Source: a virus
Length of the DNA stretch: 26,470 nt
Strand: one strand, 5' to 3'
IMG/VR virus record: IMGVR_UViG_3300042502_000899
Span: 1-26,470 of that record
Below, in pieces: positions 4,584-25,426 of the stretch. The notes under the pieces were generated by a model. It saw nothing but the letters and a program-made list of their open reading frames with translations, was not told the DNA's origin and did no database searches. Made by a program: the position numbers and the translations under genes. Numbering within the stretch: position 1 is the stretch's first letter; each line of letters starts with the position of its first letter.

Positions 4584-5761
4584 GCGGGATACCCGTCTAT
4601 TGCACATTCGTTTGGTCCACTTCTTTCTGAAGGCCAAAGCGGCTCGTATCCATTAATTATAGAATACTTCATTTCAAACAAACCGCTTACGCCAGTAGCG
4701 ACCTCTGCTGTTCTGATGTCAAAAGCCCAGTTAACATTGCCTTCAATAATATTCTCTTCGTCAAAATATGTTTTGGTTTCATCCGCGAAACATGGATTGC
4801 CACTTCCGTTCCACTCGTAAGTAAATCCAATTGCTGCCTCCTTTTGACTTTCAAGCTTGGTTATTTTTTCCGACAGTTCATCAGACACCAATTGACTCGC
4901 TGCAATCTCTTCTTCTGTTGCCCCACTATCTATAAGGTTAGTGGTGTTTAATTCGCTTGTCGCAAGCTCATTGGTGGCTGTGTCGATTTCTTCTTGTATG
5001 TCTTCGGCATCTTTGGGATCTCCGTCTATTTCAAACGGGCCATCACAGGGGCCTCTTGGAACGCCTGCTTCCGGTCCATCGATCTCTGGCGGATCTCTTG
5101 GCACAATTTTCCAATTTTGTATACGAGCCCTTACCCAAACTTTGAGATAACAACTAGCAGTTGGAGCGTGATTAATTTTTTCTAAAATTGTTTTTGATTG
5201 TTGTTTCGTGTTTCCTATGCGCGAAATATATTCTAAAGTTTCCACAGCACTTGTTTCACTGCTATAACCAAGGCCGTCTGGATCAAATAATTTATACTGG
5301 CAATCTGTTATAAGATTAGAATATTCCCAAGTAACTTTGTGTGTTGCACCCAAAAAACCCAGACAATCTCCTTCCTCTGGGCCAACGCTATCGACAGATA
5401 TACAATCTCCAGATTCATTATCCAAAGTCCTTGTTATGATTCTGTCGCAAACCCAATTTTCGTAGCTAATGCATCCCCCTTCAAAATCGGGGAATCGAAG
5501 CATGCTATAGTCATCTATTCTTCTTTCTGTGGTATAGTATTTGCATGCATCACGCACTCCACCAGATACTGTGGATGCTGGAACGGTGTAGGGGCAATCT
5601 CCATCGACAGATTCTGCTGGTGACGCCCCATCAATTACACCAAAACCACATTTATTGTCACATTCATAAAGATAGAATTTTCCCAAAAAAGTCGGCGGTG
5701 AAATACTTGGAATCTGACAACATAAAGTTCCACCTTGGTTGCAGGGTCTGAATACCTCCAT
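4577..5761 (-). CDS. Cys-rich tail/fibre-type structural protein, 394 aa
   Basis: I do not recognise a named family. The N-terminus is cysteine-rich (PCNQGGTLCCQIPS, YECDNKCGFG, GDCPY, RDACKYY, NWVCDRI), about 16 Cys in all including the last residue. The middle is beta-rich, with a charged helical segment at about residues 245-310 (DAEDIQEEIDTATNELATSE and KITKLESQKEA) likely to form a coiled coil, a typical trimeric-fibre linker. The C-terminal part (WAFDIRTAEVATGVSGLFEM) is beta-like again. It lies 9 nt downstream of the preceding minus-strand gene and overlaps the zinc-knuckle gene, so it is part of one operon. Composition is more AT-rich than the flanking plus-strand genes. Confidence 0.7.
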   Translation of the reverse strand: MEVFRPCNQGGTLCCQIPSISPPTFLGKFYLYECDNKCGFGVIDGASPAESVDGDCPYTVPASTVSGGVRDACKYYTTERRIDDYSMLRFPDFEGGCISYENWVCDRIITRTLDNESGDCISVDSVGPEEGDCLGFLGATHKVTWEYSNLITDCQYKLFDPDGLGYSSETSAVETLEYISRIGNTKQQSKTILEKINHAPTASCYLKVWVRARIQNWKIVPRDPPEIDGPEAGVPRGPCDGPFEIDGDPKDAEDIQEEIDTATNELATSELNTTNLIDSGATEEEIAASQLVSDELSEKITKLESQKEAAIGFTYEWNGSGNPCFADETKTYFDEENIIEGNVNWAFDIRTAEVATGVSGLFEMKYSIINGYEPLWPSERSGPNECAIDGYPAC

Positions 5762-5770
5762 AATGGTAAT

Positions 5771-6400
5771 TTATCTTACAAACGATACGGAAAAAAATGG
5801 TGCTGTGGCGACGAACCAATTGCGACAAATGTTGACGTTAAGAGATCCGCATCCGTAGTTGGTTATGGTTGGAACTCCATCTGTATATGAATAGTTACCA
5901 AGAGTGTAGTAGAATGATGTGTCGGTATCATTAGGCGTTGTTCCTCCGCCAGTTACTGCAACTGATACAATATCTCCCGTGGTCCCATTAATGTTTACCT
6001 CCGCCCAAACATTCCCAGAACCGCCCCCAGCTATGCTTTTTCCCTCCGCTGGGTCAAATCCCGAAGGAAGATCCCCCGCTACAGTTCCAGCACCAATCCA
6101 TACTTGGGTTGTCGCACTAACACCTGATCCGACAACCTTGGTATAAAGAGCGAGACCAACACAGCTATCCACTCCGCCTCCGCGATCAATCTGAGTAAGG
6201 TCAGCAATTGGTTCTCTTGCACGTTGAAATGTTTCGTTTTTCTGTTGATTAAATTGCTGTGGAACGAACTCCGCAATCCCGCCAGAAAGTGATGCCCCGT
6301 TAATTATTGGAGCTATTGTTCTCCCGCGAACTCCACCCCCGTCTCTTTCCCAAGATGGCGTGGTTTCTATGATTTGCTTTATTGTTTGCTCGTAATTCAT
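5771..6400 (-). CDS. Beta-rich tail/fibre-type protein, 209 aa
   Basis: The ATG at 6400 overlaps the upstream TAA as TAATG, which I preferred over the longer TTG form from 6451. The product begins MNYEQTIKQIIETTPSWERD and continues with Gly-rich beta repeats (GGGVRGRTIAPIING, GGGSGNVWAEVNING, GGGTTPNDTD). It ends in a segment with YGCGSLNVNICRNWF and a hydrophobic beta strand (APFFSVSFVR). These features suit a tail appendage or fibre-associated subunit. The WERDGGGVRG and GSLNVNICRNWF motifs look familiar from uncultured-phage tail proteins, but I cannot name a family. It sits between the 690-aa and 394-aa proteins in one transcript. Confidence 0.7.
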   Translation of the reverse strand: MNYEQTIKQIIETTPSWERDGGGVRGRTIAPIINGASLSGGIAEFVPQQFNQQKNETFQRAREPIADLTQIDRGGGVDSCVGLALYTKVVGSGVSATTQVWIGAGTVAGDLPSGFDPAEGKSIAGGGSGNVWAEVNINGTTGDIVSVAVTGGGTTPNDTDTSFYYTLGNYSYTDGVPTITNYGCGSLNVNICRNWFVATAPFFSVSFVR

Positions 6401-9314: not shown

Positions 9315-9373
9315 ACAAAGCTGATAGTTTGTGGTCTGAGGTTATGTCCTCATATGTTGTGTGTGTGGTTCCA

Positions 9374-9417
9374 GTCGGGGGTGGGTTAGTGGTTTTTCCT
9401 GCCCCCGACTTTTTCTT
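9374..9417 (+). terminator. Intrinsic (Rho-independent) terminator after the HNH gene
   Basis: A perfect 8-bp stem pairs GTCGGGGG (9374-9381) with CCCCCGAC (9402-9409) around a 20-nt loop, immediately followed by TTTTTCTT (9410-9417). It lies 60 nt after the HNH stop and ahead of the next promoter, so it separates the HNH transcript from the downstream operon. No U-run exists on the other side, so it acts on the plus strand only. It is the only clear intrinsic terminator I found in the window. Confidence 0.85.
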
Positions 9418-9435
9418 GAAAAGATTTTGAACGAT

Positions 9436-9464
9436 TTGACAATTGGACTGTCGAAGTTTATTCA
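9436..9464 (+). promoter_or_regulatory. Sigma70-type promoter for the 9480-onward operon
   Basis: TTGACA (9436-9441, exact consensus -35) is followed by 17 nt and TATTCA (9459-9464), or by TTTATT at 9457-9462 with a 15-nt spacer, as the -10. It lies directly after a terminator and ahead of an operon start. The predicted start point, about 9470, leaves a leader of about 10 nt before the ATG at 9480, with no room for a Shine-Dalgarno. Confidence 0.6.
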
Positions 9465-9479
9465 CAACTAATACATCCC

Positions 9480-10118
9480 ATGTCATTCCAAAATCCAAAT
9501 CAGCGAGAAAAAGACCCAATCATCAACCACTCCTCCCTCGTCAAGAGCGGACCCAAGTTGCTGACGATAGCAACCACCCCGAAGACCATCACCCGCAAGG
9601 CGGATCAAAAACGCTTTCATATGATAAGCCTTGACGTTGATGGGGTTATGCATACCTATTTCATTCCGAACAAGGAGATCGAAGAGAATCTCAAGCAGTA
9701 TGTCGGCAAGACGGTGGTGGTTATTGCTTCCGGCAACGACAAGCAAGGGACCGCTACGATGGAAATCCAAGCCGCGATGGTTAAGGCTTCTTCCTTGGAC
9801 AAGCCTGTGGTCGCCCACAAGCCCACTGCGGAGCCCATCAAGAATCCCGAACCCAAGGACCGCGAAGCCAAAGCCTTCCTCTGTCAGGCAGCAAACCTGA
9901 TGCGTCTTTGTGTCAAGAAGGCCAACGACATTGCTGTCGAGCTAGACCTTCCTAATGAGCATCGTCAGGGCATTGCTGGATCGATGTTTATTCAGGCGGA
10001 TAGGGCAGGATACACCTTTAAAATGCCTCTTCAGCCATATACACCAGAAGAACTGGGATGGGGGGCAAGCAAGGCTGATTCTCTGACAACCCCGCAACCA
10101 GAGGGGGATAATGATTAG
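9480..10118 (+). CDS. Putative ssDNA-binding (OB-fold-like) protein
   Basis: The 212-residue product has a beta-rich N-terminal part at about residues 20-95 (GPKLLTIATTPKTITRKADQ, HMISLDVDGVMHTYFIPN, VGKTVVVIASGNDKQGTATM). This compact strand pattern is compatible with an OB fold. A Lys/Pro-rich linker (KPTAEPIKNPEPKDREAK) leads to a helical C-terminal domain (FLCQAANLMRLCVKKANDIA, IAGSMFIQADRAGYTFKMPL) and a final acidic tail (QPEGDND). The helical part with ...SMFIQADRxGYxxKMP resembles a segment I associate with phage-encoded SSB-like proteins, and the acidic tail is typical of SSBs. It is first in its operon, with the SWIM gene overlapping its end by 8 nt. The alternative is an unrelated conserved phage protein. 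Confidence 0.6.
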   Translation: MSFQNPNQREKDPIINHSSLVKSGPKLLTIATTPKTITRKADQKRFHMISLDVDGVMHTYFIPNKEIEENLKQYVGKTVVVIASGNDKQGTATMEIQAAMVKASSLDKPVVAHKPTAEPIKNPEPKDREAKAFLCQAANLMRLCVKKANDIAVELDLPNEHRQGIAGSMFIQADRAGYTFKMPLQPYTPEELGWGASKADSLTTPQPEGDND

Positions 10119-10356
10119 CTCCTATGGAAAGGGCATTGAGATTCTGCCGCATGATAAGGGAACATTTCTTATCCAGTCACGCACCAACCGAGAAGACTTC
10201 CACCTCGTCGACCTCAACGAAGACCCCGTTACCTGCACTTGTCCAAGCTATCAATTCCGCAAGGAGTGCTTCCACATCCGATACATCTGTAAACTCTTGG
10301 GCGTCAAAACGCCGAAGTCAACAAACAACAACCAACTAGAAAAAGCAGCAGCATGA
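10111..10356 (+). CDS. SWIM zinc-finger protein, 81 aa
   Basis: The product contains VTCTCPSYQFRKECFHIRYI at residues 40-59, a CxCx8CxH arrangement (Cys42, Cys44, Cys53, His55) diagnostic of the SWIM zinc-binding domain. The N-terminal part (FLIQSRTNREDFHLVDLNED) supplies the short beta hairpin that usually precedes it. SWIM domains mediate DNA or protein binding and occur in recombination factors and transposase-related proteins; here the domain stands alone. It overlaps the OB-fold-like gene by 8 nt and the next small gene by 4 nt, so the three are probably co-translated and may act together on DNA. Confidence 0.85.
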   Translation: MISSYGKGIEILPHDKGTFLIQSRTNREDFHLVDLNEDPVTCTCPSYQFRKECFHIRYICKLLGVKTPKSTNNNQLEKAAA

Positions 10357-10517
10357 AGAAGAAAACTAAAGCTCAAAAGAAAATTGGAACCGTTATGCGG
10401 GAATTTTCCAAGGGAAAACTCAAAAGCAGTTCGGGCCAGAAGGTGACAAAACCAGCCCAAGCGAAGGCTATTGCCATGTCGGAAAGTGGCATGAGCAAAA
10501 AGAAGAAGGGTAAATAA
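10353..10517 (+). CDS. DUF6496-type small basic protein, 54 aa
   Basis: The frame begins at ATG 10353, overlapping the SWIM stop (ATGA), and ends at TAA 10515-10517. The product (MKKKTKAQKKIGTVMREFSK at the start, then KLKSSSGQKVTKPAQAKAIA and MSESGMSKKKKGK) fits DUF6496, whose members share VMREFKxGKLxSxxG, then xxAxAIAxSExGMSKKK. The family is common in phages and plasmids; its function is unknown, though its high basicity suggests DNA or RNA contact. It lies directly upstream of the structured-RNA candidate. Confidence 0.85.
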   Translation: MKKKTKAQKKIGTVMREFSKGKLKSSSGQKVTKPAQAKAIAMSESGMSKKKKGK

Positions 10518-10522
10518 TCCTT

Positions 10523-10600
10523 TGGCGGGGTGGCCGAAAACGGCAGATCTTACATCTAACCGTCAGGTTCAGCCAAATATGGGATCGCCCAGCCCCGCTA
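10523..10600 (+). ncRNA. Compact structured-RNA candidate, tRNA-sized, in a 125-nt gap
   Basis: The gap between two genes holds a 78-nt segment closed by an 8-bp stem: TGGCGGGG (10523-10530) with CCCCGCTA (10593-10600), including one G-U pair. Inside, four hairpins can form: GCCG-AAAA-CGGC (10533-10544), AGAT-CTTAC-ATCT (10545-10557), AACC-GTCA-GGTT (10558-10569) and TGGG-ATCG-CCCA (10580-10591). A competing nested fold pairs TGGC with GCCA and ACGG with CCGT. Size and closing stem recall a tRNA, but there is no GG-containing D loop, no TTCRA T loop, no proper anticodon loop and no encoded CCA. It could be a degenerate tRNA, a cis-regulatory leader for the 10643 gene, or a small RNA. Confidence 0.45.
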
Positions 10601-10642
10601 TCTTTCTTTGAACGAATCAACCACACACCTGTCAAAACACAC

Positions 10643-10858
10643 ATGAGCAACACACCCGAAACAAACGCGCTTTTGAAGCAAAGTAAGATTAAGGGCAGAA
10701 ACCCCGATCCTTGGAAGCTCTGTCGAAAGCTGGAATGTGAGTGTGATGAATTACGGGAGCAACTTTATATCGCAGTAGAGATGCTTTCAACACACCCTAA
10801 ATTTGAAAACAAACACCCAGAAGAAGTTTGGGAAATCGTGAAGGAGGCCGCGAAATGA
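10643..10858 (+). CDS. Small helical hypothetical protein, 71 aa
   Basis: The product starts MSNTPETNALLKQSKIKGRN and continues with KLCRKLECECDELREQLYIA, a predicted coiled coil, ending in a second amphipathic helix (EVWEIVKEAAK). Proteins with LxRKLExExDELRxQL are frequent among short accessory genes of tailed phages; I know of no function. The leader before the ATG is A/C-rich (10621-10642) and contains no Shine-Dalgarno. It follows the structured-RNA candidate by 42 nt, so that RNA could be its leader. Its TGA overlaps the next ATG as ATGA. Confidence 0.75.
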   Translation: MSNTPETNALLKQSKIKGRNPDPWKLCRKLECECDELREQLYIAVEMLSTHPKFENKHPEEVWEIVKEAAK

Positions 10859-11066: not shown

Positions 11067-11936
11067 ATGTCTAGAATCACTAACATCTACAACCTACCCC
11101 AGCCCTTCGTAGACCTCGTTAGCGGGGATACCTACAGCAAGGGAGAGTCAGACATCACCACTACGGGGTTGGCTCAACCTCCCAAGATTGCCGAACTCGC
11201 CAGACGCCATGCTGGTGAGATCACGATGGATGCATCCGAGAAGGTGTGGACCATGATGGGTACGGCCAACCACTACGTCTTGGAACAGATCGCCCTCCGA
11301 AATCCCGAAAGATACGTTACCGAGCAACGCTTCTATTTGGATATCGACGGGGTCAAGCTGGGTGGACAAATTGACTTATTTGACCGCGAGACCGAAACCC
11401 TATGGGACTACAAGGTCTCCAGCGTCTACAAGGCCATGAGCGATGACAAGCTGGAGTGGGCCAAGCAAGCCAACGTCAACAAGCTCTTGTGTGAACACAA
11501 CGGATTCCACCCCAAGAAACTGGCCATCCTTCTGGTGATGAAAGACTGGAAGCGCAAGGAAGCGGAATTCAAGGCCGACTATCCCAAGTGCGCCATTCAA
11601 GAAATCCCCCTACCTATTTGGAGGGAGGAGGAAACTTTGGCCTACATAAAATCCCGAATCAACTTGCACAACTCAGCAAAGTTGATAGAAGAAGAGGATG
11701 CCATCCCTGTATGCACAGAAGAAGAGCGTTGGGCTAGACCCACAACGTGGGCGGTCCTCAAGGAAAAAGGAGCGAAACGTGCCGTTAATGGAGGGATCTA
11801 CGAACTTGAATCTGAAGCTATCGCTCACGCCAAGCGAATCGGTGGTGCAATTGAAAAACGGGATGGGTCAAATCCGCGCTGTGAAAACTATTGCCAAGTG
11901 CGCCAGTGGTGCAACTTTGGAAGAAACCTAAAATAA
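11067..11936 (+). CDS. PD-(D/E)XK nuclease with Cas4/AddB-like cysteine cluster
   Basis: The 289-residue product shows the PD-(D/E)XK core. GTANHYVLEQIAL at 65-77 holds a RecB-type helix with His69. GGQIDLFD follows, with Asp103 at the 'PD' position, and LWDYKVSS gives Asp114 and Lys116. Cys216 and a C-terminal set Cys272-x3-Cys276-x5-Cys282 (RCENYCQVRQWC) match the four-cysteine pattern that binds a 4Fe-4S cluster in Cas4 and AddB. It probably degrades or resects DNA, either as a recombination exonuclease or to recycle host DNA. The start ATG 11067 has only an AT-rich upstream stretch (TATAAC at 11056-11061) and no Shine-Dalgarno. The next gene begins 4 nt after it. No cas1, cas2 or CRISPR repeats are in the window. 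Confidence 0.85.
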   Translation: MSRITNIYNLPQPFVDLVSGDTYSKGESDITTTGLAQPPKIAELARRHAGEITMDASEKVWTMMGTANHYVLEQIALRNPERYVTEQRFYLDIDGVKLGGQIDLFDRETETLWDYKVSSVYKAMSDDKLEWAKQANVNKLLCEHNGFHPKKLAILLVMKDWKRKEAEFKADYPKCAIQEIPLPIWREEETLAYIKSRINLHNSAKLIEEEDAIPVCTEEERWARPTTWAVLKEKGAKRAVNGGIYELESEAIAHAKRIGGAIEKRDGSNPRCENYCQVRQWCNFGRNLK

Positions 11937-16972: not shown

Positions 16973-19900
16973 ATGATCAACTTCAACCCCGATGAATTCA
17001 TTCGGAAATATGGAGACGCACCAACCGAAGATGAGGAAGGGGCGTCATCATCTGCGACTCCGACCCTAGACACGGAGCCAAAAAAGGAAGAGACTGTTGC
17101 GGCGGCAGGGTCATTGGGTGGGTTTAACCCAGATGAATTTATAAAAAAGTACGGCGTAGAGCCAAATAAGCAAGCCGAAGGTGGCGGGGATTATCTGGCG
17201 AGGCAGGCTGAGTATTTGATGAGTCGCCAGCCACTGGATGCTGAGACTCAGCTACCTGCCACAGAAGAGCCCAGAGATAATAGCTGGGACACGCTACGGG
17301 GTCTTGAGGTTTCAATGCGCCAAGTTCCGCAATTGGCCTATGGTGTTGCGGGGTTGGTTGGTGAAACCGCCGAGCAGCTTACGGGTTATGGAGAGAGTCT
17401 TCGGGATTTTGGATTCAAGGGATACCAAGATTGGGCTCAAAGCATGGAGCCAATCTCCAAAGAAACCGATGATGTCACGGTAGCTTGGCAACGCGCCAAA
17501 GAAGGTGATGTCGGGGCATTGGTTGATTGGGCGCAATACGGTATTGGCTACGCCCTTGGGCAGCTTGGAGAGACAGCGGCGGTTGCTGTCTTGGGCGGCA
17601 TAGCTGGTGGCGCGACAGCGGCCCCCGCAGGCCCTGCTGCTGTTCCAGCGGCGGTGGGTGGTTCTGTTGTGGCGGCGGCTGGAAAACAGGGATTCAAGGA
17701 TCTTGCTAAAAATCTTGTTGAGAAAGCCATTGCCAACCAAGCAAATAAGATTGTTATAAACCAAGCCAAAAAAGAAGGCGTCGAACTAACTGCCGAGCAG
17801 GTTGCCAAACGCGCACAGCAAGAAGCCATCAAGCGTCAGGCCGGAAAAGAGATTGGTTCCAATGCTGCTGTGTTCGCCAATGCTATTGGAATGCAGCTTG
17901 GTTCCATCTATGGATCAGCCGAAGAGCAGGCGCGAGCAGAGGGGCGGGAACTTACGGGAGTTGATTTAGCTCGCATCTGGGGAACGGGTGTTGCCACAGG
18001 CGGCATTGAGGGTGTTGTTGATAAATTTGGATTGGATCTTTTGAAGGGCAAGCTTTCAGACAAGCTTCCTGCTGGTCGATTGGCTGGGGCGGCAGTGGCT
18101 GGCGGAGTCGGAACCTTGGGAGAAGCGGCAACCGAGGCAGTCCAAACAGTTGGCGAGAGATTTGGTGCAGGAAAAGACATCCTTAGTGACGAGGCTATCA
18201 ATGAATACATCAATGCTTCCGCCTTGGGAGGTCTGGGTGGCGGGGCAATTGGCGGAGTGGGTGGATTTATTTCTGGCAATCCCAAGGAAAACGCCGCAGC
18301 AAAAGCCAAGGTATCTTCTGAGGCAAATAAGGAGATTGCTCCTGCCACTGCTGAAACTGTGGCCCGACAAGCCGATGCCGTCATTGCTGAAACAGTTCAA
18401 GAAACTCCTGAACAGCGAGTAACCCGTCTTCAAGAAGAGGCTACCGCAGCAGCAGGAATAGAACTAGAAGAAGAAGCTCCTGTTTCGGGGTTGCCTCCTC
18501 AACCTGTCACACCAACAGCAGAAGCTCCCGTAACGCCTGCTGTAGCCCCTATAGAGCCAGTAGTTGAGCCAGCAGTAGCAGGGCCGCAGCCTGCCGCAGA
18601 AGTCGCGCCAGAGATTGTTCAACAGGCAGAGCAGCGAGCAATAGCGGACTTCGCAGAAGACCTCTATGGCAATGAGCCGTATGTCAACCATCTTCGTAGG
18701 GTTTCAGATCAAATGCCCAATGATAAGCTCAAGACAACGGCGTTTCTGCATGATTCGGTGGAAGATGGGAAAATGACGTTAGACGAAGTCAGATCACAGT
18801 TTGGAGATGATGTTGCGGGGTTGGTGGATATGGTTAGTAGAAAGGATGACGAAACCTACTCTCAATTCATTGACCGCATTGCCCAAAATCCTGAAGCAGC
18901 ACAAATTAAATTGGCAGACCTTCGCGAAAACATCCGCAATGTTGAAGACTTTAAACCATCTCTTCGTTCTCGCTACGAAAAAGCCATTGCCAAACTTGAA
19001 GCCGCTCAACCCGCAGTGACTCCTCCCGCCGAGGTTGCTCCCGAAGTTACCCCTGCTCCCGAAACCCCGAATCTTGAACCCCTACGCCGAGTAGCAAGAG
19101 CAGAACAGGTTCCAGAAGACGTTCCTTCCTTGGTGGATGCGGGGTTGGTCGAGGTCTATAAGGATCAACCAGTGCTTACTGAGGCAGGGATTGCCCAGTT
19201 ACCCGAAGCAGAACGCCCAAGGCTGAACCCCGAAGCCCGAAAGATCCAGATCGACACAGGATCAAACGAAGTAGTAGCCGAAGCCATCGCGAAGGGTCTT
19301 CGTATCGGGGTGGATCAGGTGGGATTCAATGTGCGTATGCCAGCGGGATGGGTGCTGGATGGAGATATCTATGTCCCGCCCACTCCTCAAGAGGTGGCCC
19401 CCGCCCCCGAAGTAAGAGAATCCCGCAGGGAACCCTCCGTCGAGATGCGTCAGCAATACGCACCAAAAACGGAAGAAGAACAAAAAGCTTTCGACAAGGC
19501 ATCAACCAATAAAATTCTAGCGCGAAGCCCTCAACTTGCAGTAGCCGCAGTCAGGATGAAGAACGGCGAGATCACTGCTGGTGAGTATGCCGACTTGGTG
19601 GATGCCATTGATCCGTTTACGGCCAAAGGCCCAGATCCTGTCGCGACTGATGACAAAATCAAACAATACATTCAGAGTGATAAAGTCGGTAAGGTTGGAT
19701 TGATTGACGAAAAAGGAAATCCCAGACTTCAAGAAGGTTCTGAATATGAGTTTAGAATAGATATTCCAACATATAACAGGTCAACAACGGCGGGAGATAC
19801 GGTATATGCAATCACGGCACATCTTCCAGTTGCTGATGATTCCAAAACGGTTGGAGAGGTTGCTGCATTTACTGGCATAGCTAAAGTTACAGATCCGAGA

Positions 19901-22900
19901 TTTATGACCCGCAATGTGCGAGAGGGCGGGGCGATAACCATTGCAGCGGGTGCTGGCAAGTTCCGACTAGCAACCGTGAAGGGTAACTACGAACCAATCA
20001 CCGATCTCCCCGCAGACATCAACGATCCTAACGTCTGGACAGAAGTCGGATACAACCCGATCCGCTCCAGTTTCTTTGTGGATACCCGTAGCAAGGATGC
20101 TGTGGTTGGTGGATCTGAAGCCATTATGGTTGGCTCCCGTGTGTTTGTTAAGGATGCAGTTTTGGAGCCTCGCCCAACTGGAGTCACGATGGGTGAGAGG
20201 TATGCCAAGATCCAGATGCCGCGCCCTGCTGGCATGGAGACCGAAGCAGTAGCGACCAAGCTGGAGTCTTTGGGGTTTGGGCGGGGCGGGATCGTATCGG
20301 TGGTCAATGAACCCGATGCCTCCTTTGAAGGCCGCACTATCATCCGAGATGGGAAGGTAGTAGCCATTGAGCTAAACGCCGCAGCCCTGAAAGACGATGC
20401 TGCTGTCGAGCGAGTCCTAAACCATGAGATTGCCGAATCCGCCAACGCCGATGGAGCATTGAATACTTTGGTTGCGGGGTTGACCCCGAAAGAAAGAAAA
20501 GAAATCAACGATGCCATCACTAGGTTGGGCTACGCAGAGAAGGCCAGAACCGCCGAGGAAGCCGCCAGAGCCGTCGAGCTACTAGCCGAAGGATGGAGGG
20601 GCAGGAAGTGGTTTGATCGTGCTGTGGCGCGTGTTGAGGCATGGGCCAACAAGCTGGGCTACAAGCTTACCCGCCGAGCCGCTGAATACATTGCGGCCAG
20701 AAACATGGCGGAAGTCAATGACGCTTTCCGTAAACGGACAATTGCCGATGCGCTGGCCAACTTGAAGGGCGCAAGGAAGGTCAACTTCAACGGACTCAGT
20801 GCCGTCTTGATTCCGCCAAGCGAGATGGAGTTTGCCTACTCTATTGCGGCATACCATGGAACTCCGCACGTTATTAAGGATGGATTCCAGTTGGCAAAGA
20901 TCGGAACTGGTGAGGGGGCACAGGCTTATGGGTGGGGACTGTATTTTGCCGAGAACATTGATGTTGCTCGCGAATATCAAGCCAAACTTTCCCGTGATCG
21001 CTTCAAAGACGAAGCCACAAAAGTATACAACGATTGGAAATCAAACAATCCGAAAGAAGCATCCATTTTTGAGGATGAGGTTATTTCCAAAGGAATACAA
21101 AATGTACGCAACGAAGACTTTGCCATTGAGCTACAGAATATACTTGATGGATTTAGATCAACAGAAGCAAACGTATCTTCCGCAGAAAAGCTTTCGTCAA
21201 GAATATCTGGAATAGGAAATCTTTATTCGGTTGATCTGAATATTGAAAATGACAAGCTTCTTGATTGGGATAGCGTTTTTGCAAAGCAAAGCGATTTTAT
21301 TAAGAACGCTCTACAACCAATCATAGGGCAAATAACTGACGCCAACCTTGGAGAGTTGGATCGCTTTACTCTTGGAGCCGTTCTTTCCGATTTCTACAGA
21401 AACCCCAAGCTGATCGGGCTGGGCAGCAAAAAAGAAGTAAGTGAATTTTTCGCACAGCAAGGAATACAAGGCATTAAGTATTTTGATAGGGCAAGCCGCT
21501 TTGCCCAGCCAAAGAGGACGGGATTCGGGTGGCTTGTGGATGACTATCGCGGATCGAATTATTTCAAAACTAAAGAAGAGGCTTTGGAGTTTGCCAAGAA
21601 AGCTGCGACTTCCAACTTTGTTGTATTTGATGAGAGTCTAATCAACGTCACTGGACTAAATGGCCAATCCGTAGACATCCGCGAATCCCGCAGAGAAGAC
21701 GCCATCCCCACCTTCTCCGAGGGGAGCCCCGAAGCATCTACTCTTTCTACTATGGCGGCATCTATGGCCAAGGTGGATACGGCATCCGAGGCCAAGCCAA
21801 ACCCCGAAAACAAACCCACCTACAAGATCAGCGAGATAGCCTCTGTCTGGATGGATCAGGGTGGAGATGTCCGTCAACTCCAAGACCTCATCTCAGAGAA
21901 TACCAATCTTACCCCAACTAATGCGGCGAAGGTGGCCAATGCCATTGCCAAGCAATACGATATCCAGCAGTCCATCGCTACGGCATTCATTGAAACCCAA
22001 ACGGGATTGTCTGTCGAAGCACTGCCAGAAGGTGTAACCCTTCCCAAGGAAGTTGACCCTGATCGCCCACGCCCCGTCATGGCCCGTCTCTTTGATGTGT
22101 TCATGGGTGTGCGGGTTCCCCCTGTCAAGATTCAGGTCAATGAAAAGACCGCGCTCAAACAGCAGATCCGACTCAAGGCCGCAGCCAACCGAGCAGCTAA
22201 AGCAGAGCAGAGGCGTACCGCTGAAGAGGTGGTTGAGATCATCAAGTCCATGGAACTCCTTGGCCCCGTGCGTCCGAAGCAGGTTCAGGCTTTAGCTAAA
22301 CGCGCAGCCCGTGTCATTTGGACAAGCGAAAAGAGTGTCGAGGCTTTCTCAGAATACGCCGCCAAGGTGGTCGAGAATACCAACTACGATGCCGATCTCC
22401 GCGAAGCCAAGGATGCACAGAAGCGAGCCAAACAACTTTCCACCCAGAAGAAGGTGGCGATGGGTCCGCAGCGCGAGGTGCTTGAAGACGTTAGCAAGAT
22501 CCCCGTTAACAAGCTGGACGATCCCCGCATGTTTGCCGAGGCCGTGAACTACTACTTGCGCGGATTCAAGGCGGTGCTGTCACCTGATTATGTGGTCATT
22601 CCCGATGCCGAGATGGAGAGCTATCTTTCTGGAGCCCAGTCCGAGACACAAAGAAACCAGCAGGATCTTGATCGCGAAGCCAATGAGCGTCTGGCCAAAA
22701 AATACGGAATAGAAGCGGATCAGGTCAACGAAATGATGGAGTCAATTGACATCATCAAGCAGATCGAAGCCCAAGAGAACAGAGAGGCACTGGAGAATCT
22801 GTTGACCGAGAAGGCTGTTGAGACCCAGCAGGGATTGCGCGAATACAATACGGACAACCTCCGAAGCGAACAGCGTCCCATTGTTTCTTCCATGCTCAAG

Positions 22901-25426
22901 GTTGATCCCAAGGCCCTTGACCCCGAGGAGCGTCAGCGTTTCATTCGCATCACAAACAATATCATTTACAACAACCAGACCAACGGGGCGGAATACTTTG
23001 TCGCTGTTGCCAAGGGCCAGCAAAGTGCCCGTGAGGCAGCACAAGACTCCGAAATGATAGCCAAGAACAGGGCTTGGATCAATTTGCTTCCTCGTTTTGT
23101 TTCGGAAAGAATGCAGCGCGGATGGGCTCTTGAGTTGCAGTCTGTTGCTGACACGTTCCGCAACGCTTTTGGCAAGGGAGCTATGGCCAAGGTCTACGAT
23201 GCCATGGGCATGCTTGATCTTAACCTTGGATTTACCAAGGCAAACAATACGGTTGATGAGATTCAGAAAAAGATAGCAGACTTCCATCGTGGAATTGAAA
23301 AGAAGTACAAGGAAACGGCTCGCAACCAAGACGGTCTCTTGGCCGAAGGAATTGTTGGATTCTTGATCCAGTCCATTCCCAAGAAAGACGAGGTCACCTC
23401 CATCAACCAACGCCGAGACCTGATTCGTCAGGACATTGCCAATCGCAGGAGATCAGCCGCGCAACCAGACCGAATTGCCATGGCGGATCGCATCGAAACT
23501 ATTCTCAATCAAATTGATGGGGACAGTGTTGAGGCAATCCTGAACAACATGAAGCGCGACTTTCCTCCTAACTACGAATCTTTGATCTGGTACAAGGACA
23601 CCCTGCTTCCTCAATACAAAGACTTCTTGAAGAACTTTGACGAGAACTTCAACGATCAGGCCAACAACTACGATAACCCCAACTATCTTACAATTGGATT
23701 TACTTCTGCTGGCCCGTCACTTGCCATCACCCCTGAAGAGCAGGGCATGTTCTATGACCAAGTGAGCCTGCGCCCGAAACAGTCTGCCTATACCATCAAG
23801 CGTGTTGATTACTCCACACTTCCCAAGGATCGCACAACGGACAGGCCAAAAGAAATTGAATTCAATCTTCGTCGCAACGTGTTCAATGGTCTCTCAGATC
23901 AGATCAACAAGGCTTATACTTCCAGCGGTTGGCAGCGCATCGCCTCCTTTATGAAGACTCCCGAGGCCGAGACGGTGTTTGGTGGTGCGGCCAACAAAGA
24001 CTTCTTTATTGAGCGACTCAATCGTTTGCGCCTCTCCCGTATGCGCCGTGGTTCCATGGGCAGTGGCGGGGCTATTGAGAAGGCCGTCGATTCACTCAGT
24101 GTTATTTCGCGCAAGCTTGGGACTGGAATTGCCCTTGGTGGTATTTATCAGTGGATCAAACAGCCCCCAGACCAGCTTATCACGGCACTTGGTAGCGGTG
24201 GGCGAGCGGATCTTCTCGCAAAGAACATTGCACCATCTACCCAGAAGTCGGCCAGAGAACTCCTTAACAAGTTCTCCATTGGTCGCCGTGGTGACGCCTC
24301 TGCTGGTTACAAATACATCAACCAGATGGAGGGCCATCAGAACAGGCTTGAGCGTTACTTTAGTGAAAGCAAGTGGGATCAGGCTAAGGAGCAGGCGGGT
24401 AATATTGCCGATGTGTGGATGGTTGCACTCAAGTCCTCCGACTTCTTGGCGGCATCCGCAGCATGGATGACCTACTACGAGGGTGAGCTTAACAAACAGG
24501 ACATCAAGATTGATGACTGGTCCAAGGAAGCAGATCTGATTGAGTCCGATCCAGCAAGGCGTCAAGCGGCGGCGTTTGCCGAACAGATGACCGACATCTA
24601 TCAGGGGTCAAGCGACCCGACTTCCATGGCTACGTTTGCCCAAAGCGGGAAGACTGGTTGGGAAAACTTTGTCAAAGCTATCTTTGTTCCGTTCAACTCC
24701 TTTGCTATTCAGCAGCGCATGAGGCTTTACTCCGATGCTGTTGACGCCATCAATGGCAGCACAGCAGGCCGCTTTGGTCTTGCCGGAACAATTGGTGGTC
24801 TAATTCTTTTCCACGCAACCAAGCGATATGTTATCCCCGCTATCTCTGGTGTTGGTATCGGGGTTCTCTACGGACTCATGGGTGTTGATATGGATGAGCC
24901 CGATGAGGAGAAGCAGAAGGAAGAAGCAAATAAGAATTGGAGACAATTCCTCGCAGATCTTACTGGCAACTTGTTGGTTGGAGGGACACCGCAGCTTGTC
25001 GAAACTCAAGTTATTGATGCTATGAATCGGGCCTCGTACCTTGTTTCTCTCCAGCTTGAGAATGATTCAATCCTTAATGATGAGGGCGAGATCATGTCCT
25101 ATGATCAGTACTCCAAAGAGCGTTCGCCATTCTATCGCTACAAGTCCTACGATAATGCCATGAGCTTTGGGATGCTGGACATTGGTATGGGGCAGGCCGA
25201 GCAAGTGGCACTCCAAACCAAGATGCTGGCATCTCCCGAAGAGATGGAGATGTACACCCCAGAAGAACAGCGTCTCCTCTACTTCTCCGCCCTGTCCGAA
25301 TGGTTGCTACTCATGCGCCTCAACGACACCGACTTTGCCAGACTGGTTGGCAAGGCTCGACGCGACATGATCAAGGCGGCAGAAGACCGCGAGAAGGCTA
25401 TCAAAGCCATCCGTAGCGGACGCTAA
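16973..25426 (+). CDS. Giant polyvalent virion protein (2817 aa): SpoT-type HD, degenerate zincin, ART-PolyVal and LPD-like C-terminus
   Basis: The frame is unbroken and starts 3 nt after the preceding stop. Residues 4-14 and 51-61 repeat FNPDEFI(R/K)KYG. After an Ala/Gly-rich hydrophobic stretch (about 180-440) and a Pro/Ala linker, residues 560-670 form an HD hydrolase of SpoT/MESH1 type: YVNH (His573), FLHDSVEDG (His593, Asp594, Glu597, Asp598) and KLADLREN (Asp649, Asn653). Residues about 860-1075 look like a large-polyvalent-protein domain with WTEVGYNPIRSSFF (Trp1022). A zincin-like helix follows at 1148-1160 (NHEIAES, His1151-Glu1152) but lacks the second His. Residues 1290-1566 match ART-PolyVal: AAYHGTPH (His1295), GTGEGAQAYGWGLYFAENID (Tyr1319), GIKYFDR, and NFVVFDESLI. 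RESRRE occurs at 815-820 and 1570-1575. Long helical regions follow, and a C-terminal block (about 2330-2650) resembles LPD38, with hydrophobic segments near 2602-2640. In family terms it is an ejected, T7 gp16-like effector carrier. Roles of the domains are inferred from motifs. Confidence 0.85.
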   Translation: MINFNPDEFIRKYGDAPTEDEEGASSSATPTLDTEPKKEETVAAAGSLGGFNPDEFIKKYGVEPNKQAEGGGDYLARQAEYLMSRQPLDAETQLPATEEPRDNSWDTLRGLEVSMRQVPQLAYGVAGLVGETAEQLTGYGESLRDFGFKGYQDWAQSMEPISKETDDVTVAWQRAKEGDVGALVDWAQYGIGYALGQLGETAAVAVLGGIAGGATAAPAGPAAVPAAVGGSVVAAAGKQGFKDLAKNLVEKAIANQANKIVINQAKKEGVELTAEQVAKRAQQEAIKRQAGKEIGSNAAVFANAIGMQLGSIYGSAEEQARAEGRELTGVDLARIWGTGVATGGIEGVVDKFGLDLLKGKLSDKLPAGRLAGAAVAGGVGTLGEAATEAVQTVGERFGAGKDILSDEAINEYINASALGGLGGGAIGGVGGFISGNPKENAAAKAKVSSEANKEIAPATAETVARQADAVIAETVQETPEQRVTRLQEEATAAAGIELEEEAPVSGLPPQPVTPTAEAPVTPAVAPIEPVVEPAVAGPQPAAEVAPEIVQQAEQRAIADFAEDLYGNEPYVNHLRRVSDQMPNDKLKTTAFLHDSVEDGKMTLDEVRSQFGDDVAGLVDMVSRKDDETYSQFIDRIAQNPEAAQIKLADLRENIRNVEDFKPSLRSRYEKAIAKLEAAQPAVTPPAEVAPEVTPAPETPNLEPLRRVARAEQVPEDVPSLVDAGLVEVYKDQPVLTEAGIAQLPEAERPRLNPEARKIQIDTGSNEVVAEAIAKGLRIGVDQVGFNVRMPAGWVLDGDIYVPPTPQEVAPAPEVRESRREPSVEMRQQYAPKTEEEQKAFDKASTNKILARSPQLAVAAVRMKNGEITAGEYADLVDAIDPFTAKGPDPVATDDKIKQYIQSDKVGKVGLIDEKGNPRLQEGSEYEFRIDIPTYNRSTTAGDTVYAITAHLPVADDSKTVGEVAAFTGIAKVTDPRFMTRNVREGGAITIAAGAGKFRLATVKGNYEPITDLPADINDPNVWTEVGYNPIRSSFFVDTRSKDAVVGGSEAIMVGSRVFVKDAVLEPRPTGVTMGERYAKIQMPRPAGMETEAVATKLESLGFGRGGIVSVVNEPDASFEGRTIIRDGKVVAIELNAAALKDDAAVERVLNHEIAESANADGALNTLVAGLTPKERKEINDAITRLGYAEKARTAEEAARAVELLAEGWRGRKWFDRAVARVEAWANKLGYKLTRRAAEYIAARNMAEVNDAFRKRTIADALANLKGARKVNFNGLSAVLIPPSEMEFAYSIAAYHGTPHVIKDGFQLAKIGTGEGAQAYGWGLYFAENIDVAREYQAKLSRDRFKDEATKVYNDWKSNNPKEASIFEDEVISKGIQNVRNEDFAIELQNILDGFRSTEANVSSAEKLSSRISGIGNLYSVDLNIENDKLLDWDSVFAKQSDFIKNALQPIIGQITDANLGELDRFTLGAVLSDFYRNPKLIGLGSKKEVSEFFAQQGIQGIKYFDRASRFAQPKRTGFGWLVDDYRGSNYFKTKEEALEFAKKAATSNFVVFDESLINVTGLNGQSVDIRESRREDAIPTFSEGSPEASTLSTMAASMAKVDTASEAKPNPENKPTYKISEIASVWMDQGGDVRQLQDLISENTNLTPTNAAKVANAIAKQYDIQQSIATAFIETQTGLSVEALPEGVTLPKEVDPDRPRPVMARLFDVFMGVRVPPVKIQVNEKTALKQQIRLKAAANRAAKAEQRRTAEEVVEIIKSMELLGPVRPKQVQALAKRAARVIWTSEKSVEAFSEYAAKVVENTNYDADLREAKDAQKRAKQLSTQKKVAMGPQREVLEDVSKIPVNKLDDPRMFAEAVNYYLRGFKAVLSPDYVVIPDAEMESYLSGAQSETQRNQQDLDREANERLAKKYGIEADQVNEMMESIDIIKQIEAQENREALENLLTEKAVETQQGLREYNTDNLRSEQRPIVSSMLKVDPKALDPEERQRFIRITNNIIYNNQTNGAEYFVAVAKGQQSAREAAQDSEMIAKNRAWINLLPRFVSERMQRGWALELQSVADTFRNAFGKGAMAKVYDAMGMLDLNLGFTKANNTVDEIQKKIADFHRGIEKKYKETARNQDGLLAEGIVGFLIQSIPKKDEVTSINQRRDLIRQDIANRRRSAAQPDRIAMADRIETILNQIDGDSVEAILNNMKRDFPPNYESLIWYKDTLLPQYKDFLKNFDENFNDQANNYDNPNYLTIGFTSAGPSLAITPEEQGMFYDQVSLRPKQSAYTIKRVDYSTLPKDRTTDRPKEIEFNLRRNVFNGLSDQINKAYTSSGWQRIASFMKTPEAETVFGGAANKDFFIERLNRLRLSRMRRGSMGSGGAIEKAVDSLSVISRKLGTGIALGGIYQWIKQPPDQLITALGSGGRADLLAKNIAPSTQKSARELLNKFSIGRRGDASAGYKYINQMEGHQNRLERYFSESKWDQAKEQAGNIADVWMVALKSSDFLAASAAWMTYYEGELNKQDIKIDDWSKEADLIESDPARRQAAAFAEQMTDIYQGSSDPTSMATFAQSGKTGWENFVKAIFVPFNSFAIQQRMRLYSDAVDAINGSTAGRFGLAGTIGGLILFHATKRYVIPAISGVGIGVLYGLMGVDMDEPDEEKQKEEANKNWRQFLADLTGNLLVGGTPQLVETQVIDAMNRASYLVSLQLENDSILNDEGEIMSYDQYSKERSPFYRYKSYDNAMSFGMLDIGMGQAEQVALQTKMLASPEEMEMYTPEEQRLLYFSALSEWLLLMRLNDTDFARLVGKARRDMIKAAEDREKAIKAIRSGR

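Follow-up and report, generated by a model that had tools for sequence, protein, structure and literature searches.

In the DNA of an uncultured phage, a structured RNA element (positions 10523-10600) immediately follows a stop codon; it is most likely either an intrinsic terminator or a 3'-end element, built on a new, tRNA-shaped branched stem. The DNA analysed, hereafter the window, is a virus record of 26,470 bases, given as one strand and carrying phage genes. On balance, and with modest confidence, sequence comparison leads us to favour a predicted multibranched intrinsic terminator or 3'-end element that would insulate the promoter downstream of it. Intrinsic terminators are normally simple hairpins, and a conserved, branched, tRNA-shaped fold in the terminator slot is unusual. 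Sister phages carry unrelated folds in the same slot, always with the same promoter alongside, so that nature has already run a swap experiment on the 3'-end requirements of phage transcripts.

Genomic setting of the element

The window encodes a holin and an amidase, an endonuclease VII-like protein and a PD-(D/E)XK exonuclease. The element starts 2 nt 3' of the stop codon (10517) of a small DUF6496-like gene, a family assignment that exceeds the PF20106 cut-off in 5 relatives, and the 125-nt gap between this stop and the start codon at 10643, as given in the initial annotation, was confirmed. The features of the region are listed below.

9373-9414, + strand: ordinary hairpin terminator with a T-run, preceding the second promoter copy in the same arrangement
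9427-9455, + strand: second promoter copy, TTGAAC-N17-GTCGAA, upstream of the gene at 9480
10353-10517, + strand: upstream gene, 54 aa, DUF6496-like and Lys-rich (PF20106 at 22.7 bits, below the cut-off of 24)
10520-10524, + strand: CUUUG, 5' flank of the fold, common to all alleles at this site, the unrelated type B included
10524-10531, + strand: GGCGGGGU, 5' strand of the closing stem P1
10532-10574, + strand: variable P2 arm of the three-way-junction fold (GGC/GCC, GAA/UUC, ACGG/CCGU, AGAU/AUCU)
10575-10579, + strand: linker AAAUA joining P2 and P3
10580-10591, + strand: P3 hairpin, UGGG-AUCG-CCCA, abutting P1 in the T-arm position
10592-10599, + strand: GCCCCGCU, 3' strand of P1
10600-10609, + strand: U-rich tract AUCUUUCUUU, immediately 3' of P1 and overlapping the promoter -35
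10608-10636, + strand: ECF-like promoter, TTGAAC-N17-GTCAAA, 6 nt before the ATG at 10643
10643-10858, + strand: downstream small gene, 71 aa, missing from most element-bearing relatives
11067-11936: PD-(D/E)XK exonuclease gene

Predicted fold

The minimum-energy fold of 10523-10600 (-30.1 kcal/mol) reproduces the sequence and fold first described for the element, namely a long closing stem and four hairpins with the stems GCCG/CGGC, AGAU/AUCU, AACC/GGUU and UGGG/CCCA. In single-sequence folding its excess over shuffles is only moderate (z -2.3; 3 of 200 shuffles folded equally well), and the base-pair probabilities of P1 are 0.80-0.999, mostly >0.99, in a fold of -29.8 kcal/mol. The region 10532-10574, which is read as three separate hairpins in the four-hairpin fold, forms a single P2 arm in a three-way junction, and the two structures are nearly isoenergetic (-30.9 for four hairpins against -30.4 for the junction). 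When the type A sequences described below were compared, the junction paired 92% of cells with 1 double change and the four-hairpin fold 89% with 0 double changes. The four-hairpin architecture of the initial annotation stands for the minimum-energy fold, whereas the relatives probably, if mildly and short of proof, favour the three-way junction. In the junction, P1 and P3 make up a 12-bp stack without a gap, resembling an acceptor stem with its T arm.

Inside the element, UUUGGC (10521-10526) can also pair with GCCAAA (10572-10577), which would compete with P1; the pairing is a possible antiterminator candidate that other subfamilies do not conserve.

Alleles at the junction and the adjoining promoter

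An exonuclease query supplied 24 related phage loci in which the same site could be compared, and the junction after the DUF6496-like gene was found to be highly variable among them. The 78 nt of the window (type A) recur identically in L005, L007, L010, L018, L020 and L024, of which L005 equals the window across the entire 125-nt gap, while L007, L018 and L020 come from almost the same phage. Between the window and four other phage backgrounds the element is 100% identical, where identity is 68-90% for the DUF6496 genes and 82-90% for the exonuclease genes. Type A' (L006) differs in the middle, type C is found at this site in L021, and an unrelated fold, type B, takes its place in L008, L011, L012, L014 and L016; type B shares with type A only a 5'-terminal CUUUGGC and a 3'-terminal UUUUUUGAACG. 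A plain hairpin replaces the element in L009, and L003, L004, L013, L015, L017, L019, L022, L023 and L025 have no element at the junction.

Sequence comparison confirms that the element is real, because it is unchanged between contigs with diverged flanks and has compensated variants elsewhere. The perfect identity would reflect either strong constraint or recent cassette exchange, and the latter does occur, since the alleles form a mosaic at the junction.

In the window clade the element is followed by a U-run and then by TTGAAC, 17 nt and GTC, usually with AA, and this promoter ends 6-12 nt before the next start codon. The same order, with at most 1 mismatch, holds for every structured allele found by synteny (A, A', B and C), the single mismatches being in L010 and L021. 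At the junction between the DUF6496 and exonuclease genes, all 13 loci with a structured element also have the promoter, and the 10 loci without such an element all lack it (Fisher p 9e-7, to be read as indicative since the loci are related). Where both are missing, stop and start codons overlap in a plain operon-like manner in 6 of the 10 loci. The hairpin of L009 is without a promoter, which counts against the favoured terminator reading.

The motif TTGAAC-N17-GTC occurs 41 times in the 297 kb of the window phage and five relatives, while each of the other spacings from 12 to 23 gives 0-8 copies. Most copies lie 11-18 nt upstream of an ORF start, a recurring position which, as read from the sequence, implies near-leaderless mRNAs. 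The sigma-E type promoter is GAAC-N17-GTCTAA. We take the boxes and spacing of the phage motif to resemble such ECF promoters, from which the transcript would be nearly leaderless; the motif shares the GAAC and GTC boxes at the same spacing, but its -35 starts with TT instead of GG, and no phage-encoded ECF sigma factor scored over the cut-off in the phage contigs. So strict a promoter lets the transcription units of these uncultured phages be read from sequence. It recurs as TTGAAC-N17-GTCnAA in L189-L203, and at another junction L189 has in the same slot a GCGGGGUC...CCCCGC hairpin followed by seven T.

A wider family in other phages

The pattern CTTTGGCGGGGTGN{36,66}GCCCCGC, searched in viral contigs, matched 23 stretches, about 3 of which are estimated to arise by chance. 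Besides types A, A' and C, the matches include L128/L165, from a different phage group and clearly homologous to type A; L101/L139, which is type C in an unrelated phage; and type D (L163/168/169, L164, L166 and L170), located after an endolysin gene or a small ORF. Matches L173-L175 appear to be unrelated hairpins and were set aside. All members can form the three-way junction, with P1 (GGCGGGGU/GCCCCGCN, an invariance that is partly a product of the search pattern, which required P1), a variable P2, a linker of 5-6 nt and a P3 that abuts P1.

In type C, 125 of 125 cells pair, 3 pairs are changed on both sides, and a U-U mismatch, a GU bulge and a GCAA loop are conserved. The wobble pairs of this type fit an RNA of the plus strand (125 cells paired, against 107 as minus-strand RNA), as do those of type D (93 against 87). 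A minus-strand RNA was rejected on these grounds, although the window folds well in that sense (z -4.3).

Covariance models of the subfamilies recover one another's members: the type A model finds A' and D at 28-37 bits and the type C model finds A at 25-28 bits, while the best score in 78 control contigs was 22 and the next 17. The controls were the matches listed from a first 14-mer scan, mostly chance ones, nearly all of which have only the shared 14-mer. Type C scores 20-22 bits under the type A model, within the control range, so that the link between A and C rests on L006 and on the architecture.

Most members are positioned 3' of a stop codon, and the element starts within a few bases of it in the window clade, in L101 and in type D. 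Stop-codon readthrough was considered and found unsupported, as the frame after the stop varies among carriers and ends at varied stops. The D elements are intergenic, between convergent genes. L170 carries two D-type copies in tandem (5740-5820 and 6054-6113), the second preceded by a short piece left over from the end of the endolysin gene, which suggests duplication or recombination along with flanking gene sequence.

In BLASTN searches of annotated phages and plasmids, neither the element by itself nor the element together with its relatives returned a relative of the window's own family, and the pattern was absent from 119 Planctomycetota genomes. A single genome-scan match of the type C pattern, in a Phycisphaeraceae MAG, lies inside a coding sequence and was dismissed as chance. 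The literature search found no description of the element, and the family is undescribed in Rfam and in the literature searched.

Likeness to tRNA

The initial annotation had proposed an undescribed phage ncRNA that is not a recognisable tRNA, and this is borne out by the scans and by the finding of the family in other phages. Among 4227 Rfam families the window matches nothing at gathering or relaxed thresholds, the relatives L101, L133, L147, L155, L164, L167 and L169 have no match over gathering, and ARAGORN reports no tRNA in the window element or in the 17 loci scanned. The P3 loop of the window is ATCG, and the copy has no T loop of the form TTCRANN, no D loop, no anticodon loop with T33 and no CCA end; the decayed tRNA and the aminoacylation mimic that had also been suggested find no support in it. 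Type C likewise is without T, anticodon and D loops and CCA.

Subfamily D comes closer. Its P3 has the T loop UUCAAUG (TTCAATG in the DNA of L163), and C-CCA reads after P1 in most D sequences. The L163 type also has a 7-nt anticodon-like loop, CUACAAA, and scores 29.7 bits to tRNA-Sec (RF01852); no family member reaches the gathering score of 47, and the window has no match to this family. The tRNA likeness of the wider family is thus real but weak. With bacterial tRNA-Sec and tRNA the element shares its size, an 8-bp closing stem and a T-arm-like hairpin stacked directly on that stem, but P2 replaces the D, anticodon and variable arms.

Proposed role and alternative readings

In the favoured mechanism, RNA polymerase would pass the stop codon of the DUF6496-like gene and transcribe the element. 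P2 and P3, folding as they emerge, would draw the two far-apart strands of P1, which is GC-rich and 8 bp long, into contact, and P3 would stack on P1 in the manner of a T arm on an acceptor stem. Closure of P1 would coincide with synthesis of the U-rich tract, and transcription would end. A few bases on, the next gene would be transcribed afresh from the ECF-like promoter (TTGAAC-N17-GTC), into an mRNA with almost no leader. Together, the terminator and this promoter would make up one boundary module that phages of the clade exchange, gain or lose at this junction.

On the simplest reading, 10524-10609 would be a terminator or 3'-end structure belonging to the upstream transcript. At another junction the same arrangement of stem, T-run and TTGAAC has ordinary hairpin terminators. 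Like Rho-independent terminators, the element places a stable stem, rich in GC, between the end of a gene and a promoter, with a U-rich tract immediately after the stem; T-runs longer than the window's occur in L006, L021, L133 and L172. It differs from them in that P1 encloses a conserved branched domain of about 60 nt in place of a loop of 3-8 nt, for which reason the terminator scan does not list it. Certain observations sit less well with a terminator: the U-tract of the window is interrupted, loop conservation is 100% even where the backgrounds have diverged, beyond a terminator's needs (which cassette exchange could explain), and the U-run after P1 is absent from type D and from the relatives L128/L165, which indicates that the fold is more than a terminator stem.

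The missing U-run of D and L128, the T loop of D and the tRNA-Sec score of L163 make it possible that the RNA itself has a function, as a shield for 3' ends, as a small RNA or by mimicking a tRNA. We entertain tentatively the view that the elements form a widespread new phage RNA family whose tRNA-shaped three-way-junction core, directly 3' of stop codons, would act as a 3'-end module that is processed or withstands nucleases (or as a tRNA mimic), independent of termination and cassette-swapped between unrelated phages. As the family reaches phages in which it has a T loop and no U-run, it is a candidate for a new class of phage tRNA-like RNA. Rather unlikely, in our estimate, is a stable small RNA or 3'-UTR-derived RNA that would act in trans or protect mRNA 3' ends, its compact tRNA-shaped fold resisting 3'-5' exonucleases or binding a host protein, with any U-run serving only as its terminator. 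The perfectly conserved loops amid diverged flanks, the conserved details of type C and the related folds at 3' ends without a U-run, such as the tandem L170 copies after the endolysin gene, agree with such an RNA; against it, the identity may stem from recent cassette exchange among phages, and in the window clade a plain hairpin (in L009) or the unrelated type B can stand in for the element, a sign that a function at the 3' end may suffice.

We consider it improbable that the element is a tRNA mimic, whether degenerate or specialised, which RNase P would cut or tRNA-binding enzymes would recognise and which would serve in transcript processing or as a decoy against tRNA-targeting defence. 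The gapless P1-P3 stack and the D-type T loop, anticodon-like loop and C-CCA point that way, but the window copy and type C lack these marks, ARAGORN is silent and the tRNA-Sec score stays under gathering. Phage C4-type antisense RNAs are tRNA-like transcripts cut by RNase P. The element is phage-encoded too, lies 3' of a gene and has the stacked-stem shape of a minimal substrate; the likeness is one of shape and position.

A riboswitch-like cis-acting leader for the 10643 gene, as once proposed, is very unlikely and was rejected: the element does lie 43 nt upstream of that start codon, but the promoter at 10608-10636 intervenes, most relatives with the identical element are without the gene, and carriers differ in their downstream gene, whereas the element keeps its place after the upstream stop codon. 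Least credible is a chance or purely historical fold, for instance a tRNA remnant or recombination scar; single-sequence folding only about 2.3 sd better than shuffles would allow it, but the element is identical in five backgrounds, compensated relatives occur in unrelated phages, and the covariation of type C disfavours it.

Accessory observations

Type B, GGCAACGUCA...GGCGUGACAGCNGGAGAGACNGCA, is a second structured RNA in the same slot of sister phages, found also in L153, L157 and L158 and without an Rfam match. Similar stretches (L205 701-723; L206 ~679-728; L207 ~690-725) are intergenic by the holin in Morganella phage IME1369_02, inside a tRNA array in Rhizobium phage RHph_I1_18 and next to tRNAs in Stenotrophomonas phage SOVA965. 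In the last phage, the 900 nt without annotation that precede the tRNA cluster also hold a sub-threshold match to Proteo-phage-1 RNA (L205 228-311, 34.7 bits, gathering 42).

Between promoter and exonuclease, L016, L133 and L161 carry a related gene of about 157 aa (e.g. L161:12230-12703) with no PHROGs match, and small cargo genes seem to use the junction as a landing site. Elsewhere in the window, 16973-25426 is a single ORF of 2817 aa, the sole recognised part of which is an HD phosphohydrolase-like stretch at residues about 539-677.
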